Of a stretch of DNA of 22,963 bases, positions 17,104-21,393 are shown in pieces. Position numbers and translations under genes: made by a program. The DNA is taken from positions 1-22,963 of the IMG/VR virus record IMGVR_UViG_3300010389_000150, one strand, 5' to 3'. Position 1 is the first letter of the stretch; the number at the start of each line of letters is the position of its first letter. The DNA comes from a virus. The notes beneath the pieces are model-generated. The model did not search any database. It was not told the DNA's origin and saw only the letters and a list, made by a program, of their open reading frames with translations.

Positions 17104-19014
17104 TTATATTCTTACGAGGTCTCCGTTGGAATAACTTGAAGTTACCGTGTATGTTGATCCAGAGATATCAGAACCTGAAGATATTTCATCTGATACCATA
17201 TTTAACACACTAGAAGATGGGTCTAATTGGAGATATAGATCCTGTAATCCAATTACATCATTTGATCTAGGAGATACTGATATCTCAATAATAGATTCTC
17301 CTCCACTATTCTTTGTAGTGGAAGTTATGTTTACAGGATTTAAAATAATTTCTCCTCGATCATAATCAATTCTTCCAACATTATTTCTTACAACTGTTGG
17401 AGTATTTGTAGATGTTATTGTAAAGAAAAATATGGATCCCGTTTTTCCATCAGCATTTGGAATATCTGACATATAAACTGTTCCATTTACTGAACTCACA
17501 GTAAAACCAGAAGACTTAATATTATATCCACTCATCTTTCCGATGTGGAAAGCATTACCATAACAAATCTCATAATCTGCAAATTGGTTCAACGCAGGTT
17601 TCATATCTCTTCTCATAACAACTTTTGTTATGTTTGAAGTGATTGCACTGTTGCTATCGTCAATTAACTTTAAGAATTTACTATATTTAAATCTAGCACC
17701 ATATCTATTCAATTCCGAAGAGTCTGCGTATGAGTTTATATTACTTGATACGATAGTTTTCAAGTAATCTGCACTTGGTGCTGCATTTGTATTGTAATAT
17801 ACCGAAGAATCGAACTCAATGTAAAGATATTTCAGATCCAATATCTCAGGTACAATTCCAGCAACACTATATTTTCTTAGACTATTAACAATATTTTCTT
17901 TTATCTGACTCGAAACAAAAGTTCCGTTAATGGGTTTGATTGATATATAAACCTTTCCAAATCTAGGAGGGTTCAAATCTTCTCCACCAAATACAGAAAC
18001 AGATTCTGTCTCTGGATAAATGGTTGGAATAATAGTTTCATAATCAGTTGCAGTTACAGCTCTATTCTGAGAAGCATATATTCTGGGAGCATATTTTTTG
18101 ATCGAATCTACAGACTCTATATTTTGCCCACCTCTAGATTGTGTGTTGGTGGTTAAAAGAGAGATGCCTGTAGTAACTACACGATTATTGTTATCAACAA
18201 TTCTTCCATTAAATGTAAAGGATGAAACTCCGTTTGCATCTTCACCTGTAGTTGTTACATATGATACTTCAACATAGTTTTGATCATCAAGTTTAACTCC
18301 AAATACACCATCGCCAAAAATAAGTTCATATCTCTGATCTTCTATTTCTTGAATAAAAAATACTCTAGAAGTTGAATCGACATCAAGTAAACTAGTAGAT
18401 AATGTAAACTTACGAGTTACACTACTTGATTGTGTATTTCTAACTAAAACAGAAATTGATTTAGTATCAATATCAGAGTTGTCTAAAATATATTTTTGAT
18501 TTGGATCATTCGAGTTTACAGTAAATGTTTTAACTAAGAACGTTCCCTCATATACATTAACATTTTCGAATAATGCAATTCCATTAATAACTGGTTTAGT
18601 AACATCTTCTGGAATTGTAAATGTATAACTTTGATTTCCGAAAGTACTTGTGGATGTACAAACAGTTCCTTTCTTAAGTGTCAAAGTTAATGGTCTTGTA
18701 GTAAACCCAGTGGTATCTACAAAAAAAGATATATTTGCTGTCGCCGAAGTTTTGGAACGAGGAACATATCCAATGTTCCTTGCCAAAGAAACAACGTTTT
18801 CTCTTAAGGTAGCACTATCAATAAACACCTCATTGGTGATCATATTCGCATTATATGATGTAATGTAGGTGTTATATGCTAAAACATCAATAAGAGTTGA
18901 TAGAGTCGATCCCTCAAAATCGTAGTCAGTAAAATTCGAGTTCGATCTAAGGTAATCCTTAATCGAAGTCTTGATTTGATCGAAGTCTAGGTTAGTGAAA
19001 TTTACTAATGCCAT
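17104..19014 (-). CDS. 6: Baseplate wedge protein gp6
   Basis: Homologue of T4 gp6, a baseplate J-like protein. Two copies per wedge join with gp7 and form the inner ring that ties the wedges to the hub. The clearest match is at residues 30-49, DYDFEGSTLSTLIDVLAYNT, against T4 DYDFEGSRLNVLCDLLAYNT. Downstream of it, NVVSLARNIGYVPRSK aligns with the T4 stretch ending GYLPTSK. A later segment (YVEVSYVTTTGEDANG) matches T4 VIEYISTNGADANG, and the conserved ATDYETIIP motif is also present (T4 ATDYDTFV). The length of 636 residues is close to T4's 660. Its ATG overlaps the gp25 stop by one base (TAATG), so translation is probably coupled. No Shine-Dalgarno is visible. Confidence 0.93.
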   Translation of the reverse strand: MALVNFTNLDFDQIKTSIKDYLRSNSNFTDYDFEGSTLSTLIDVLAYNTYITSYNANMITNEVFIDSATLRENVVSLARNIGYVPRSKTSATANISFFVDTTGFTTRPLTLTLKKGTVCTSTSTFGNQSYTFTIPEDVTKPVINGIALFENVNVYEGTFLVKTFTVNSNDPNQKYILDNSDIDTKSISVLVRNTQSSSVTRKFTLSTSLLDVDSTSRVFFIQEIEDQRYELIFGDGVFGVKLDDQNYVEVSYVTTTGEDANGVSSFTFNGRIVDNNNRVVTTGISLLTTNTQSRGGQNIESVDSIKKYAPRIYASQNRAVTATDYETIIPTIYPETESVSVFGGEDLNPPRFGKVYISIKPINGTFVSSQIKENIVNSLRKYSVAGIVPEILDLKYLYIEFDSSVYYNTNAAPSADYLKTIVSSNINSYADSSELNRYGARFKYSKFLKLIDDSNSAITSNITKVVMRRDMKPALNQFADYEICYGNAFHIGKMSGYNIKSSGFTVSSVNGTVYMSDIPNADGKTGSIFFFTITSTNTPTVVRNNVGRIDYDRGEIILNPVNITSTTKNSGGESIIEISVSPRSNDVIGLQDLYLQLDPSSSVLNMVSDEISSGSDISGSTYTVTSSYSNGDLVRI

Positions 19015-19415
19015 TATCGTGTTGGCTGTAATGCAAATGATAACTGTTGCGGTAATACATCAATCCCAACAATGTAATAATTAATTGTCACATTAAATTC
19101 ATTGTTTTCATAATTTGGAGAAACATCGACAGAAATTAAATCAACTCTTGGTTCGTAATTATTGATAGTATTGGTGATTTCATCTTTAATCACAGATGCA
19201 GAAATCTCATCCATATTCTCAAAAAGTGTTTGAGACACTCTAGAACCAAGATTTTCGTTAAAAAATCTTTCTCCTGGGAGAGTAAAGATGAGATTTCTGA
19301 CCGAACGAGCAATAGCGGTCTCATTTTTAATAGAAATCAAGTCATTATTCAGGGGATTAACCTGAAATGACATGCTTATATCTTTGAATCCTCTACTTAG
19401 CCGTTCTACAGGCAT
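19014..19415 (-). CDS. 25: Baseplate wedge protein gp25
   Basis: Homologue of T4 gp25, the small wedge protein of the GPW/gp25 family that links the wedge core to the sheath and helps trigger sheath contraction. The length (133 residues) is almost equal to T4 gp25 (132). Typical family features are the N-terminal GFKDISMSF, the DLISIKNETAIARSVRNLIF helix region, LPGERFFNENLGS at 46-58, the FENMDE segment, and the C-terminal EPRVDLISVDV with beta strands ending in a short tail. Older annotations may call it a lysozyme because of the family name; no lysozyme activity is implied. The start is the ATG at 19415, with no good Shine-Dalgarno. A late-promoter motif lies 21 nt upstream. It overlaps gp6 by one base. 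Confidence 0.94.
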   Translation of the reverse strand: MPVERLSRGFKDISMSFQVNPLNNDLISIKNETAIARSVRNLIFTLPGERFFNENLGSRVSQTLFENMDEISASVIKDEITNTINNYEPRVDLISVDVSPNYENNEFNVTINYYIVGIDVLPQQLSFALQPTR

Positions 19416-19444: not shown

Positions 19445-19697
19445 ATGGTTTTTTAAATTCATAGAGTGGTTCTGTGCCATACTCCCAGTCATCATAGTCT
19501 TCATCATTACGTATTTTTGAGTGAATCTCATTTTGAGTTTCAAAATCATGCTTTTTGGGAGTAAGATCATCATTACTGATCTCTCTTAGCATCTGTTTGT
19601 CTTTGATTTTTTCAAAAATACCATAATCTGATGTTAAATTAGTAGTTCCCCATAGTTCGTACATATAATTTTGATCACGATCTGATGGTTTTCCCAT
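19443..19697 (-). CDS. Small acidic conserved phage protein, function unknown
   Basis: An 84-residue, highly charged soluble protein (MGKPSDRDQNYMYELWG...). The C-terminal half is acidic and aromatic (NDEDYDDWEYGTEPLYEF), and no membrane segment or recognised domain is seen. The start is the ATG at 19697. It has a good ribosome site, AGGAGA, about 6 nt upstream, placed immediately after a 7-bp hairpin. It lies directly before gp25. The same location relative to baseplate genes suggests co-expression with late genes, but no role can be assigned from the sequence. Confidence 0.85.
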   Translation of the reverse strand: MGKPSDRDQNYMYELWGTTNLTSDYGIFEKIKDKQMLREISNDDLTPKKHDFETQNEIHSKIRNDEDYDDWEYGTEPLYEFKKP

Positions 19698-19707
19698 TTT
19701 TGCTCTC

Positions 19708-19724
19708 CTGATTTGTAAAATCAG
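19708..19724 (-). promoter_or_regulatory. Hairpin abutting the ribosome site of the 84-aa gene
   Basis: The minus strand forms CTGATTT-TAC-AAATCAG, a perfect 7-bp stem with a 3-nt loop. The right arm runs into the AGGAG ribosome site of the next gene, so the fold could expose, stabilise or partly mask the site. There is no T-tract after it, so it is not a typical terminator. Confidence 0.5.
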
Positions 19725-19732
19725 AACTTTTT

Positions 19733-19750
19733 ACGGGGTTGCTATCCCGT
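19733..19750 (-). promoter_or_regulatory. Second hairpin after the 199-aa gene
   Basis: The minus strand reads ACGGG, an 8-nt loop, then CCCGT, beginning at the stop codon of the 199-aa gene. It is followed by AAAAAG and not by a run of T, so it is unlikely to be a Rho-independent terminator on this strand. With the neighbouring hairpin it makes a two-stem leader, possibly an mRNA processing or 3'-end protection element. On the plus strand it is also not followed by T. Confidence 0.4.
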
Positions 19751-20349
19751 TAATCGATGTAAAATCCCTGTCTAAGGTAATCTTTATCTTCGATGAACGT
19801 TAAATTATCGATATTTTCTATTTTTTGATCATTCCACACTGGAATTGCAACTGTATTGCCATATCTAAAGTCTGGATTTCTCCTAAAATGAACCTCTATA
19901 AGGTGATTTCCGATAAATTCGCAGTTTATCCACTCATAATCACCTTTTAGACTATTTAATACAGGAGGAAACTCTACCTTAAAGTCCATCTTAGTCCACT
20001 TTTTCCATCTGTAGAGTGGATCTTCTTCGTCTTTTTCACCTAAGACCACTAATTTTGACTCTTTGTTTTGATAATCAACGCTATAATGATCTCCATAGAA
20101 CATTTCACACCAAAACTCTGAGGGATGAAACCTTTCAGTGTCTTTATAAATCCATTCCTTACGAGAAAATCGTCCCATACCAAGAAGGTTAATACTTGGT
20201 CGGACGATATAATACCCCGAATATGGAACAGGCACCCCTGTAGGTCCACAGAGATGCCCCAAACGATTATTTAAAAAGAGTTTGTTATAGACCCATAGAT
20301 CTTCTGGATGTATAGATTTCCATTCGTCTAATGAATCTAAATGATACAT
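19750..20349 (-). CDS. Conserved phage protein with ATP-grasp-like motifs
   Basis: A 199-residue soluble protein of unassigned function. Three motifs appear in the order expected for an ATP-grasp catalytic core: YIVRPSINLLGMGR (47-60), like the RPS..LGG nucleotide loop; CEMFYGDHYSVD (81-92), like the E..xGxExSVD strand; and IEVHFRR (151-157), like the metal-binding E-x-N-x-R strand, though with His in place of Asn. It is much shorter than usual ATP-grasp enzymes and lacks an obvious N-terminal substrate domain, so it could be a minimal or degenerate member, or the likeness could be chance. The start is the ATG at 20349, which overlaps the upstream stop by one base (TAATG), with an AAGGT ribosome site. 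It is the last gene of the glycosyltransferase operon. Confidence 0.82.
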   Translation of the reverse strand: MYHLDSLDEWKSIHPEDLWVYNKLFLNNRLGHLCGPTGVPVPYSGYYIVRPSINLLGMGRFSRKEWIYKDTERFHPSEFWCEMFYGDHYSVDYQNKESKLVVLGEKDEEDPLYRWKKWTKMDFKVEFPPVLNSLKGDYEWINCEFIGNHLIEVHFRRNPDFRYGNTVAIPVWNDQKIENIDNLTFIEDKDYLRQGFYID

Positions 20350-20480
20350 TACTTACCTTGCCCCCGATACTTCTTCTTGCGACCATTACGAGAAGTTGCT
20401 GAGAGAAGAGTCCGAGCAGAACGACCTTGACGAGTCTTCTTAGGTGCTCCTTTTTCAAAAATAGTCTTATTCAGTGCCAT
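20349..20480 (-). CDS. Small basic conserved phage protein (43 aa)
   Basis: A 43-residue, strongly basic protein (MALNKTIFEKGAPKKTRQGR...RNGRKKKYRGQGK). Its KKTRQGRS and SRNGRKKKYRGQGK segments resemble a short protein I recall as common in cyanomyovirus genomes, of unknown role. The charge suggests nucleic acid or ribosome contact, but this is inference. The ATG at 20480 overlaps the upstream TAA by one base and has a strong GGAGG ribosome site about 7 nt before it. Its stop overlaps the next start in the same way. Confidence 0.8.
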   Translation of the reverse strand: MALNKTIFEKGAPKKTRQGRSARTLLSATSRNGRKKKYRGQGK

Positions 20481-20626
20481 TAGATTTCCTCCAGTTCGAG
20501 TTGTTCAATATCAAAGTCCTCATCAGTGTAATACTTAGAGGAGAGTTCGTCAAGAACCTCAGTACATTCTTCATGACTGAGGTTCTGATATATCTTACGT
20601 CCTTTGTATAAGATATTAAAAGCCAT
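20480..20626 (-). CDS. Small acidic conserved phage protein (48 aa)
   Basis: A 48-residue protein, MAFNILYKGRKIYQNLSHEE followed by an acidic tail ending in EQLELEEI. A short basic, aromatic N-terminus precedes an acidic helix. It resembles small conserved cyanophage proteins of unknown function. The ATG at 20626 overlaps the glycosyltransferase stop (TAATG) with no ribosome site of its own, so it is probably translated by coupling. The end of the gene contains the ribosome site of the next gene. Confidence 0.78.
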   Translation of the reverse strand: MAFNILYKGRKIYQNLSHEECTEVLDELSSKYYTDEDFDIEQLELEEI

Positions 20627-21393
20627 TAGATCACACGAGTTTTTTCATGTCCCACACGAATACGAGGATCACACCAGATATCAAATCCAGCTTCTTTTGC
20701 ATCTAAACAGAATGATACGTCCTCTCCGCACATATCTTGAACTGCACCAGATTCAAAGACTTGCATCTTAGGTGCAAACCAGGGATACTCAAGATTCTCA
20801 AATACACCCTTTTTGATCATGACCCAACCAAATCCCGTGTAATCAACTGTAAATGGTTTACGACGTTTTGTAATACCTTCCACGTTCTCGTGATTCATGA
20901 CTCCACCGTTCTTACGGAAGTCATCTTCCTCTAACCAGTGAGCAACAGATGTTGTATGTCCATCTTCAGTTGCATACCAACCTGCAACAATCTCTTTCTC
21001 CTCACCTTCTTCGTTCAGTGCAAGATCACAGAGTTGCCAAAACTTTTCGGTGTTGAATACAATGTCACTATCAATCCACAGTTGATAATCATAATTCAGT
21101 TTACCATCCCAAGGAATCTGTTTGGGCCCCCGCAACACATTTGCTCCAAGAACTTTACAACGAGCAAAGTTTACCATTGAACTATAGTCTTGAGAAATCT
21201 GAATACTCATGTTGTTTTGAACAAGATCAAAACAAAGTTGAACAAATGCTTTTAAGAAAGTAAATGAGCATCCACGACCAGGAAGACAAAAGACAATCGA
21301 CTTGCCCTTCATTCGTTCCTTAATTGCCTCATAATCCCATTCTGCTTCCTTTGGTTTCGGAGCATTAGCCTTCAAAGTAAATCCTTTTGCCAT
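20626..21393 (-). CDS. GT-A fold glycosyltransferase
   Basis: A cytoplasmic glycosyltransferase of 255 residues, of the GT2-like type found in many cyanomyoviruses. After a short basic N-terminus, residues 31-40 (KSIVFCLPGR) form the first strand of the nucleotide-sugar fold. WIDSDIVF at 106-113 carries the DxD motif (D108, D110) for metal and sugar-nucleotide binding. A Gly-Trp-Tyr segment is at 138-140 and YTGFGWVMIKKGVF at 185-198. CGEDVSF at 222-228 is the usual acidic acceptor-side motif, and H249 in VGHEK is a likely metal ligand. Donor and acceptor are unknown; a virion protein, DNA base or host glycan are all possible. The start is the ATG at 21393, with GAAGGT upstream and its own promoter in front. 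It heads a four-gene overlapping operon. Confidence 0.85.
   Translation of the reverse strand: MAKGFTLKANAPKPKEAEWDYEAIKERMKGKSIVFCLPGRGCSFTFLKAFVQLCFDLVQNNMSIQISQDYSSMVNFARCKVLGANVLRGPKQIPWDGKLNYDYQLWIDSDIVFNTEKFWQLCDLALNEEGEEKEIVAGWYATEDGHTTSVAHWLEEDDFRKNGGVMNHENVEGITKRRKPFTVDYTGFGWVMIKKGVFENLEYPWFAPKMQVFESGAVQDMCGEDVSFCLDAKEAGFDIWCDPRIRVGHEKTRVI

Follow-up and report, generated by a model that had tools for sequence, protein, structure and literature searches.

Can a protein of just 199 residues, encoded beside the baseplate genes of a virus, be an ATP-grasp enzyme? This question was raised by a preliminary description of a stretch of viral DNA of 22,963 nucleotides (IMG/VR record IMGVR_UViG_3300010389_000150), which we will call the window. 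The window holds gp25, gp6, and then a reading frame of 3998 amino acids, which is the arrangement of T4-like cyanophages. The features that we discuss are listed in Table 1.

Table 1. Features of the window, with their positions, strand, and evidence. Fractions with a denominator of 184 in the active-site rows refer to distinct relatives. BC, biotin carboxylase.
Feature	Position	Strand	Evidence
Compact ATP-grasp-like protein, 199 aa, PHROG 3577	19750..20349	minus	ORF list; phrog_3577, E 4.1e-58; model and fold matches; upstream stop
Basic peptide gene, 43 aa, PHROG 516 (T4-GC 394 in annotated cyanophages)	20349..20480	minus	Stop overlaps ATP-grasp start (TAATG)
ORF, 48 aa	20480..20626	minus	TAATG overlaps on both sides; match within 1.5 kb in 97/197 loci
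GT-A-like glycosyltransferase candidate, PHROG 1574	20626..21393	minus	phrog_1574, E 2.3e-116
gp25 baseplate wedge gene (downstream landmark)	19014..19415	minus	Profile matches; 183/184 loci with room
Conserved RNA leader (next gene, small, 5' of gp25)	19695..19750	minus	ATP-grasp stop codon to next start; folding and covariation
K23, linker Lys/Arg position (E. coli PurK R80, BC K116)	20281..20283	minus	183/184
R50, second basic residue, strand end (PurK K120, BC K159)	20200..20202	minus	R 177, K 7 of 184
G57-M58-G59-R60, glycine loop over phosphates	20170..20181	minus	G57 184, M58 183, G59 171, R60 183 of 184
E82 to H88, hinge and ribose region (PurK E153/E161, BC E201/H209)	20086..20106	minus	E82 175, H88 184 of 184
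E144, first metal-binding acid (PurK E226, BC E276)	19918..19920	minus	184/184
E152-x-H154-x-R156, ExNxR motif with His for Asn (BC E288-N290-R292; PurT EVSPR)	19882..19896	minus	E152 183, H154 181, R156 184 of 184

A family of short phage proteins

The 199-residue ORF is real. It begins with ATG, and an in-frame stop codon lies one codon 5' of this ATG, which shows that the N-terminus is truly short and that the start was called correctly. When we compared relatives without gaps (pairs at least 70% identical, up to 60 sequences), differences were most frequent at third codon positions (68,989, versus 32,966 at first positions and 18,875 at second positions), as for a protein under selection.

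The protein belongs to PHROG 3577, to which PHROGs assigns no function. A protein search of 50,697 phage records gave 50 matching records, and the feature under every match is called hypothetical. The carriers include S-T4 (72% identity), S-SRM01, ACG-2014f isolates, and BUCT-ZZ01 (31% identity). In S-SRM01, the match is in two pieces (L082:6001-6598, with an annotated coding sequence of about 165 amino acids), the cause being a frameshift, either of the phage itself or of its recorded sequence. Four overlapping scans of IMG/VR confirmed 281 of 285, at least 578 of 600, at least 580 of 600, and at least 582 of 600 candidate stretches; the family has hundreds of relatives in IMG/VR, and many cyanobacterial viruses carry it. 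Scanning IMG/VR with the BUCT-ZZ01 protein as the query gave no matches.

Short length is typical of the family. Among 188 distinct sequences that were not filtered by length, 184 had 190-239 amino acids (in ten-residue classes), one had 240-249, and three had fewer than 180. An upstream in-frame stop is present in all 188 (the possible extension has a median of 5 residues and a maximum of 50), which means that the N-terminal domain is truly absent. The set that we used to study conservation came from 281 places, of which 272 passed a length filter (180-245 amino acids); these gave 184 distinct proteins.

We found no cellular relatives by a pattern search of GTDB, and none in a separate search of 8 genomes. 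Matches at E up to 1 were present in 13 of 386 genomes (one cyanobacterial phylum), with a best E of 0.038. Seven of 10 such loci were inspected (all but L320, L325, and L326; four further matches have no locus): six matches were to one helicase-like protein, which we named by eye, over about 50 residues, and one was to another protein. We take the weak cyanobacterial matches to be due to chance. Literature searches on ATP-grasp proteins in cyanophages or bacteriophages, phage peptide ligases, and minimal ATP-grasp or pre-ATP-grasp domains gave no account of PHROG 3577 as an ATP-grasp family, and the term "ATP-grasp" is absent from the S-SRM01 paper (PMC8557907).

Predicted structures resemble ATP-grasp enzymes

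The preliminary description proposed structure prediction as a check, and AlphaFold does predict a two-part ATP-grasp fold, over nearly the whole chain, for two members of the family. The model of the window protein, which was built with 63 aligned relatives, has a pLDDT of 93.6 and a pTM of 0.88. When we compared it to the PDB with Foldseek, the best 50 rows were all ATP-grasp enzymes, with PylC at the top (E 2.6e-5), followed by an ATP-grasp protein from Archaeoglobus; the RiPP ligase PsnB was also among the best matches. Among the rows listed, seven matches had E up to 0.001, and TM-scores were modest (0.27-0.56 by query length). With VIA-align, PurK came first (Z = 12.3, 190 residues, 3.1 Å), followed by GAR synthetase, L-amino-acid ligases, PurT, biotin carboxylase, and carbamoyl phosphate synthetase, and the best 50 entries were again all ATP-grasp enzymes. 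No RNA ligase or PurC was among the VIA-align entries listed, which is not evidence against such kinship. A comparison to models of viral proteins gave an unnamed relative first (46% identical), and then glutathione synthase and an ATP-grasp protein.

The second model was for the protein from ACG-2014f (48% identical to the window protein; 34 sequences). Its confidence is lower (pLDDT 81.1), and residues 52-58, at the glycine loop, are below 50. This model finds the same enzyme families (Z = 10.5, 176 residues, 3.5 Å).

Sequence profiles do not detect the relationship

A profile search had also been proposed as a check, and here the ATP-grasp kinship did not reach significance. HMMER found no match to Pfam's ATP-grasp families for the window protein and 17 members of the family (3 of the 17 have a weak match to an unrelated Pfam family, and otherwise there was none), nor to NCBIfam's ATP-grasp families for the window protein and the relative from BUCT-ZZ01. 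The family had no match of note among PDB sequences. With hhalign, the scores of the family against four ATP-grasp proteins from E. coli were no better than those against 21 other E. coli proteins, their neighbours. Four small ATP-grasp profiles (of 3-19 sequences) gave probabilities of 0.15-0.38%, and two of six unrelated controls scored above them (the highest, a SNF2-like helicase, at 29%). Despite the low probabilities, the best local alignments to the mixed profile and to the CarB profile were in the correct register. Because profiles fail, assigning the family to the ATP-grasps rests on the predicted structure together with the order of the motifs and their conservation.

To describe the order and spacing of the motifs, we composed a regular expression from the E. 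coli ATP-grasps, after having seen the window protein. None of 100,000 shuffles of the window protein match this template. It matches 234 of 1486 ORFs of at least 150 codons (a redundant set from the loci that we collected): 228 are members of the family by blastp, and the other 6 are true ATP-grasps (PurT, biotin carboxylase, and four that are CarB-like by eye). In other words, of 1209 non-family ORFs, the other 1203 do not match. The template overlooks 49 of 277 family ORFs, as well as E. coli PurK and, as expected, Ddl.

The predicted active site is conserved

Three signature regions of ATP-grasps had been reported in the window protein, and they do occur in the expected order: RPSINLLGMGR at residues 50-60, CEMFYGDHYSVD at 81-92, and IEVHFRR at 151-157. 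We compared the window protein by hand with the sequences of E. coli PurK, PurT, and biotin carboxylase, and we verified that PurK and biotin carboxylase have residues of the expected kind at the numbers in Table 1. The roles that we assign to the matched residues (linker, phosphate loop, hinge, ribose, and metal) are those of the E. coli residues.

R50, E82, E152, and R156, which had been singled out as key residues, are conserved across the 184 distinct relatives, as are the other positions in Table 1. Position 50 is basic (R or K) in all of them. The exceptions at E82 are Q in six relatives, D in two, and K in one; at E152, D in one; at H154, Q in three; and at G59, S in 11 and C in two. 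D92, N142, and N158 are each invariant. ATP-grasps have an acidic residue in strand 4 of the second domain and ExN in strand 5. The family has E144 for the former and E152 for the Glu of the latter, but H or Q instead of N at the third position of ExN; E. coli PurK and PurT have A and S there.

Comparison to known groups of ATP-grasps

The closest structural matches are to the branch that includes PurK, PurT, biotin carboxylase, and CarB. The phage family has the same order of conserved features as PurK, PurT, and biotin carboxylase (the linker Lys/Arg, the strand Lys, a GxG loop, the hinge Glu, another Glu, and ExxxR). Unlike the enzymes of this branch, the phage protein lacks the N-terminal pre-ATP-grasp domain, has ExH instead of ExN, ExA, or ExS, and has no sequence-profile match. 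PylC, the best Foldseek match, and the L-amino-acid ligases (BacD/YwfE, the Bacillus licheniformis enzyme, and RizA, with Z = 8.9-11.4 to the phage models) are also similar in fold, but among the rows listed they are just 8-14% identical and have chains of 344-471 residues.

The ATP-grasp peptide ligases that we found described from phages belong to the R2K clade (CDC123, PF14243), as seen in excerpts of PMC4431377 and of an overview of jumbo phages (PMC7824862). Both groups are ATP-grasps of phages, and they share a second basic residue in the loop after strand 2 (R60 in the window protein). However, R2K proteins are defined, in the same excerpts of PMC4431377, as lacking both the linker Lys and the GxG loop, whereas the phage family keeps both (K23 and the GMG loop). 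Also, PF14243 has no matches in the window's record or in 17 members of the family. We therefore set aside the idea that these are R2K peptide ligases. Going by excerpts of PMC4431377, ATP-grasps are characterised by a basic residue in the linker before the first domain, to which K23 corresponds, and by a basic residue where strand 2 ends and a GxG-type loop; the family has these as well (R or K at position 50, and the GMG loop). The same source, again in part, gives an Arg in the strand after the hinge as the mark of most peptide-forming ATP-grasps. No Arg is found among the columns that are at least 97% conserved at positions 88-105 of the 184 relatives (we placed the strand using the predicted model).

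A slot of variable content before the baseplate genes

In the window, TAATG overlaps link the glycosyltransferase-like gene, the 48-residue ORF, the gene for the basic peptide, and the ATP-grasp gene into a chain; among other loci, there is variation in the spacing 5' of the ATP-grasp gene. We counted neighbours across 197 distinct ATP-grasp loci, restricted in each case to the loci with room. The glycosyltransferase-like gene is upstream in 141 of 143 loci, 172 of 180 have a match to the basic peptide no more than 400 nt upstream, and gp25 is downstream in 183 of 184. The glycosyltransferase-like gene, the small peptide gene, and the baseplate genes gp25 to gp6 make up the constant surroundings. 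One of the two exceptions for the glycosyltransferase-like gene has it farther off; the other is BUCT-ZZ01, where the stretch we examined contains no glycosyltransferase, peptide, or gp25.

The preliminary description placed the protein in a sugar cluster, beside a glycosyltransferase and a sugar isomerase. The first of these neighbours is constant (its best match, PHROG 1574, is a family of unknown function, and it has weaker matches to glycosyltransferase families, the best at E 3.9e-8), but the second is not: the isomerase-like neighbour is a 112-residue cupin, and just 6 of the 112 loci that extend 2 kb upstream have a match to it there (8 of 197 if the extent is ignored). Given the rarity of the cupin and the variable content of the slot, "sugar cluster" is too strong.

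What occupies the slot in other phages? In phages without the ATP-grasp gene, the gap between the peptide gene and gp25 may encode a PHROG 3704 protein, a 2OG-Fe(II) oxygenase, or some other protein, or it may lack a sizeable gene. For example, in S-RIM8 and S-SM1, the peptide gene is directly before gp25, with no gene between. (PHROG 3704 and the ATP-grasp do not exclude each other: three query proteins from PHROG 3704 have nearby matches in 11, 3, and 3 of the 197 loci.) The stretch from gp46 to gp25 is a hot spot of Synechococcus-phage genes, according to excerpts of Sullivan et al. 2010 (PMC3037559). In short, the content of this slot, which leads into the baseplate genes, varies from phage to phage; the ATP-grasp gene is one of its occupants, and a glycosyltransferase-like gene is its one constant neighbour. 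We rejected the idea that the slot holds a stable enzyme partner of the glycosyltransferase, because other T4-like cyanophages carry unrelated proteins or nothing there. At E 1e-3, the glycosyltransferase-like gene matches 104 phage records, and the ATP-grasp matches 50, so the association of these two genes may be plain linkage. (S-T4, S-SRM01, and ACG-2014f, which carry the ATP-grasp, are among the best 60 of the 104 records.) The 43-residue peptide matches 453 phage records in a lenient search (E up to 10), or 128 with 80% coverage.

We made some other observations about these loci. The peptide is strongly basic, ends in YRGQGK, and is usually encoded just 5' of the slot gene in the records that we opened. 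In 30 of 197 loci, as in S-SRM01, the start of the ATP-grasp gene is followed after about 640 bases by a gene similar to speD (S-adenosylmethionine decarboxylase). The slot proteins of S-SM2, Bellamy, S-SKS1, and S-CAM4 (L293, L295, L297, and L289) are recorded as ferredoxin, and one also as purM; none has a credible Pfam match. PHROG 3704 carries the name ferredoxin as well (three of these four slot proteins were scanned). The name looks wrong for these slot proteins.

An RNA leader of the gp25 operon

A conserved RNA element follows the ATP-grasp gene. In the DNA, its first hairpin has the stem ACGGG/CCCGT and the loop AUAGCAAC. In the RNA, the order is the stem ACGGG/CCCGU with the loop AUAGNAAC, a run of A, GUUCU, and a second hairpin, which covers the Shine-Dalgarno sequence. 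The downstream AAAAGUUCU could pair with the loop to form an H-type pseudoknot, and the second hairpin shares bases with this possible pseudoknot, so a translational switch is possible.

The element from 19750 to 19695, including the Shine-Dalgarno hairpin, has z = -3.6, and 2 of 200 shuffles were as stable. We aligned 32 of 64 distinct forms. Two pairs of the stem change on both sides, in 30 cells; none of 500 shuffles scored as high, but the bare number of such pairs (two) was reached by 454 of the 500. Two other pairs are invariant, and 9 of the 32 forms lack the outer pair. The pairs between the loop and GUUCU hardly vary, and covariation does not demonstrate the pseudoknot, which is possible.

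A scan for the element alone gave at least 120 stretches, and we inspected 79 new loci. Where there was room, gp25 lay within 900 bases downstream in 69 of 70 new loci, and an ATP-grasp match was upstream in just 4 of 64. Because it mostly occurs without the ATP-grasp but with gp25 next, the element belongs to the gp25 operon of T4-like cyanophages, as its leader, and not to the ATP-grasp gene. Rfam has no match to it at the gathering score; at E up to 5, all matches were far below the family scores, and one of these overlaps the leader (E 2, a snoRNA). Literature on pseudoknots of cyanophages led us to excerpts of PMC2864571, which describe the manA and wcaG motifs as RNA motifs of cyanophages, and not a leader of the gp25 operon. 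Excerpts of PMC3014915 describe a different RNA structure at gene 25 of T4-even phages.

The element is also found at L282:4268, L286:4753, L296:4834, L297:5336, L298:5065, L299:5742, L082:6976, and L083:6627. In some loci, the slot gene reads through it (the C-termini of the ATP-grasps in L012, L021, L031, and L039, and the slot gene at L298:4441-5139). This gives the tail RDSNPVKSSD to two unrelated proteins, the ATP-grasp and PHROG 3704.

What might the protein do?

We think that the family is probably an active, if compact, ATP-grasp ligase that activates carboxylates. The idea of a very short ligase gains from the protein's unusual shortness, which reflects the lack of a pre-ATP-grasp domain, from the conservation of the key residues, and from the predicted fold, but not from profiles. 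The ATP-grasp fold and ATP binding are very likely. Because the active site is kept, activity as an enzyme is likely; and because many of the nearest folds perform it, carboxylate-amine ligation is the most likely chemistry. ATP-Mg would lie between the two halves of the protein, with K23, R50, and the GMG loop holding the phosphates, and E144, E152, and H154 holding the metals. A carboxylate or similar oxygen would be phosphorylated to give an acyl phosphate, and with the help of R156 a nucleophile (most likely an amine) would displace it. As there is no N-terminal substrate domain, the substrate would have to be small or be presented by a partner; nothing points to the small peptide or the sugar acid that had been suggested. 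As the gene lies in one string with a glycosyltransferase-like gene, beside the baseplate genes, its most likely job would be to finish a modification of the virion or of the host's surface. Our guess is that the enzyme completes the modification of such a component late in infection. Two observations speak against our reading of the protein as an active ATP-grasp: a His replaces the metal-binding Asn, and 9 of 184 relatives have another residue at the hinge position, E82.

Alternatively, the protein could be an ATP-grasp that is not a carboxylate-amine ligase but does other chemistry, for example as a kinase or as a carboxyphosphate-forming carboxylase. Among the closest folds are enzymes that use bicarbonate (PurK, biotin carboxylase, and the CarB type), which share the E-x-x-x-R motif, and the strand after the hinge lacks the conserved Arg of the peptide-forming enzymes. 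But L-amino-acid ligases, PylC, Ddl, and PsnB match too, and we recognised no biotin-carrier or purine gene among the neighbours that we scanned, so we view another chemistry as unlikely. It is quite unlikely that the protein is a non-catalytic structural or regulatory component of baseplate assembly, either as an ATP binder or with a relic site. The His in place of Asn and the near-constant position next to gp25 would fit such a role, but the catalytic positions are near-invariant, and a dead enzyme would be expected to lose them. Furthermore, other T4-like cyanophages have unrelated proteins in the slot, or leave it empty, so the ATP-grasp-like protein is not a core assembly factor.

The basic peptide encoded just upstream might seem to be a substrate, as RiPP ATP-grasps act on precursor peptides: its gene overlaps the start codon of the ATP-grasp, the two are rarely far apart, and PsnB is among the best Foldseek matches. 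However, the peptide matches many more phage records than the enzyme does (its search was more lenient), and it occurs without the enzyme, as in S-RIM8 and S-SM1. Precursors of graspetides are acidic, while this basic peptide has one Glu and no Asp. We consider it very unlikely that the enzyme is a maturase for this peptide. Finally, the resemblance to ATP-grasps could be a chance similarity of alpha+beta sandwiches, as might be suspected from the lack of significant similarity between sequence profiles. This is highly improbable, given that the rows listed in four comparisons to the PDB are ATP-grasp enzymes only, and that the order and spacing of the motifs agree with those of ATP-grasps.

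Implications

Returning to our preferred reading, a carboxylate-activating ligase, a more specific version of it is tentative and rather unlikely: a phage-specific branch of ATP-grasps that is reduced to the bare core, with ExH for ExN, might join the co-encoded glycosyltransferase in decorating a glycan on the virion or the host's surface with an acyl or amino-acyl group. If this is true, the pair would be an undescribed modification system of T4-like cyanophages. If the phage protein is active at all, it would presumably be among the smaller ATP-grasp enzymes and would be a natural minimal model of the fold, and the hot spot that precedes the baseplate operon of cyanophages would be shown to encode a modification enzyme. 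More broadly, a family that is called "hypothetical" in all 50 of the phage records we found now has a testable enzyme activity attached to it.
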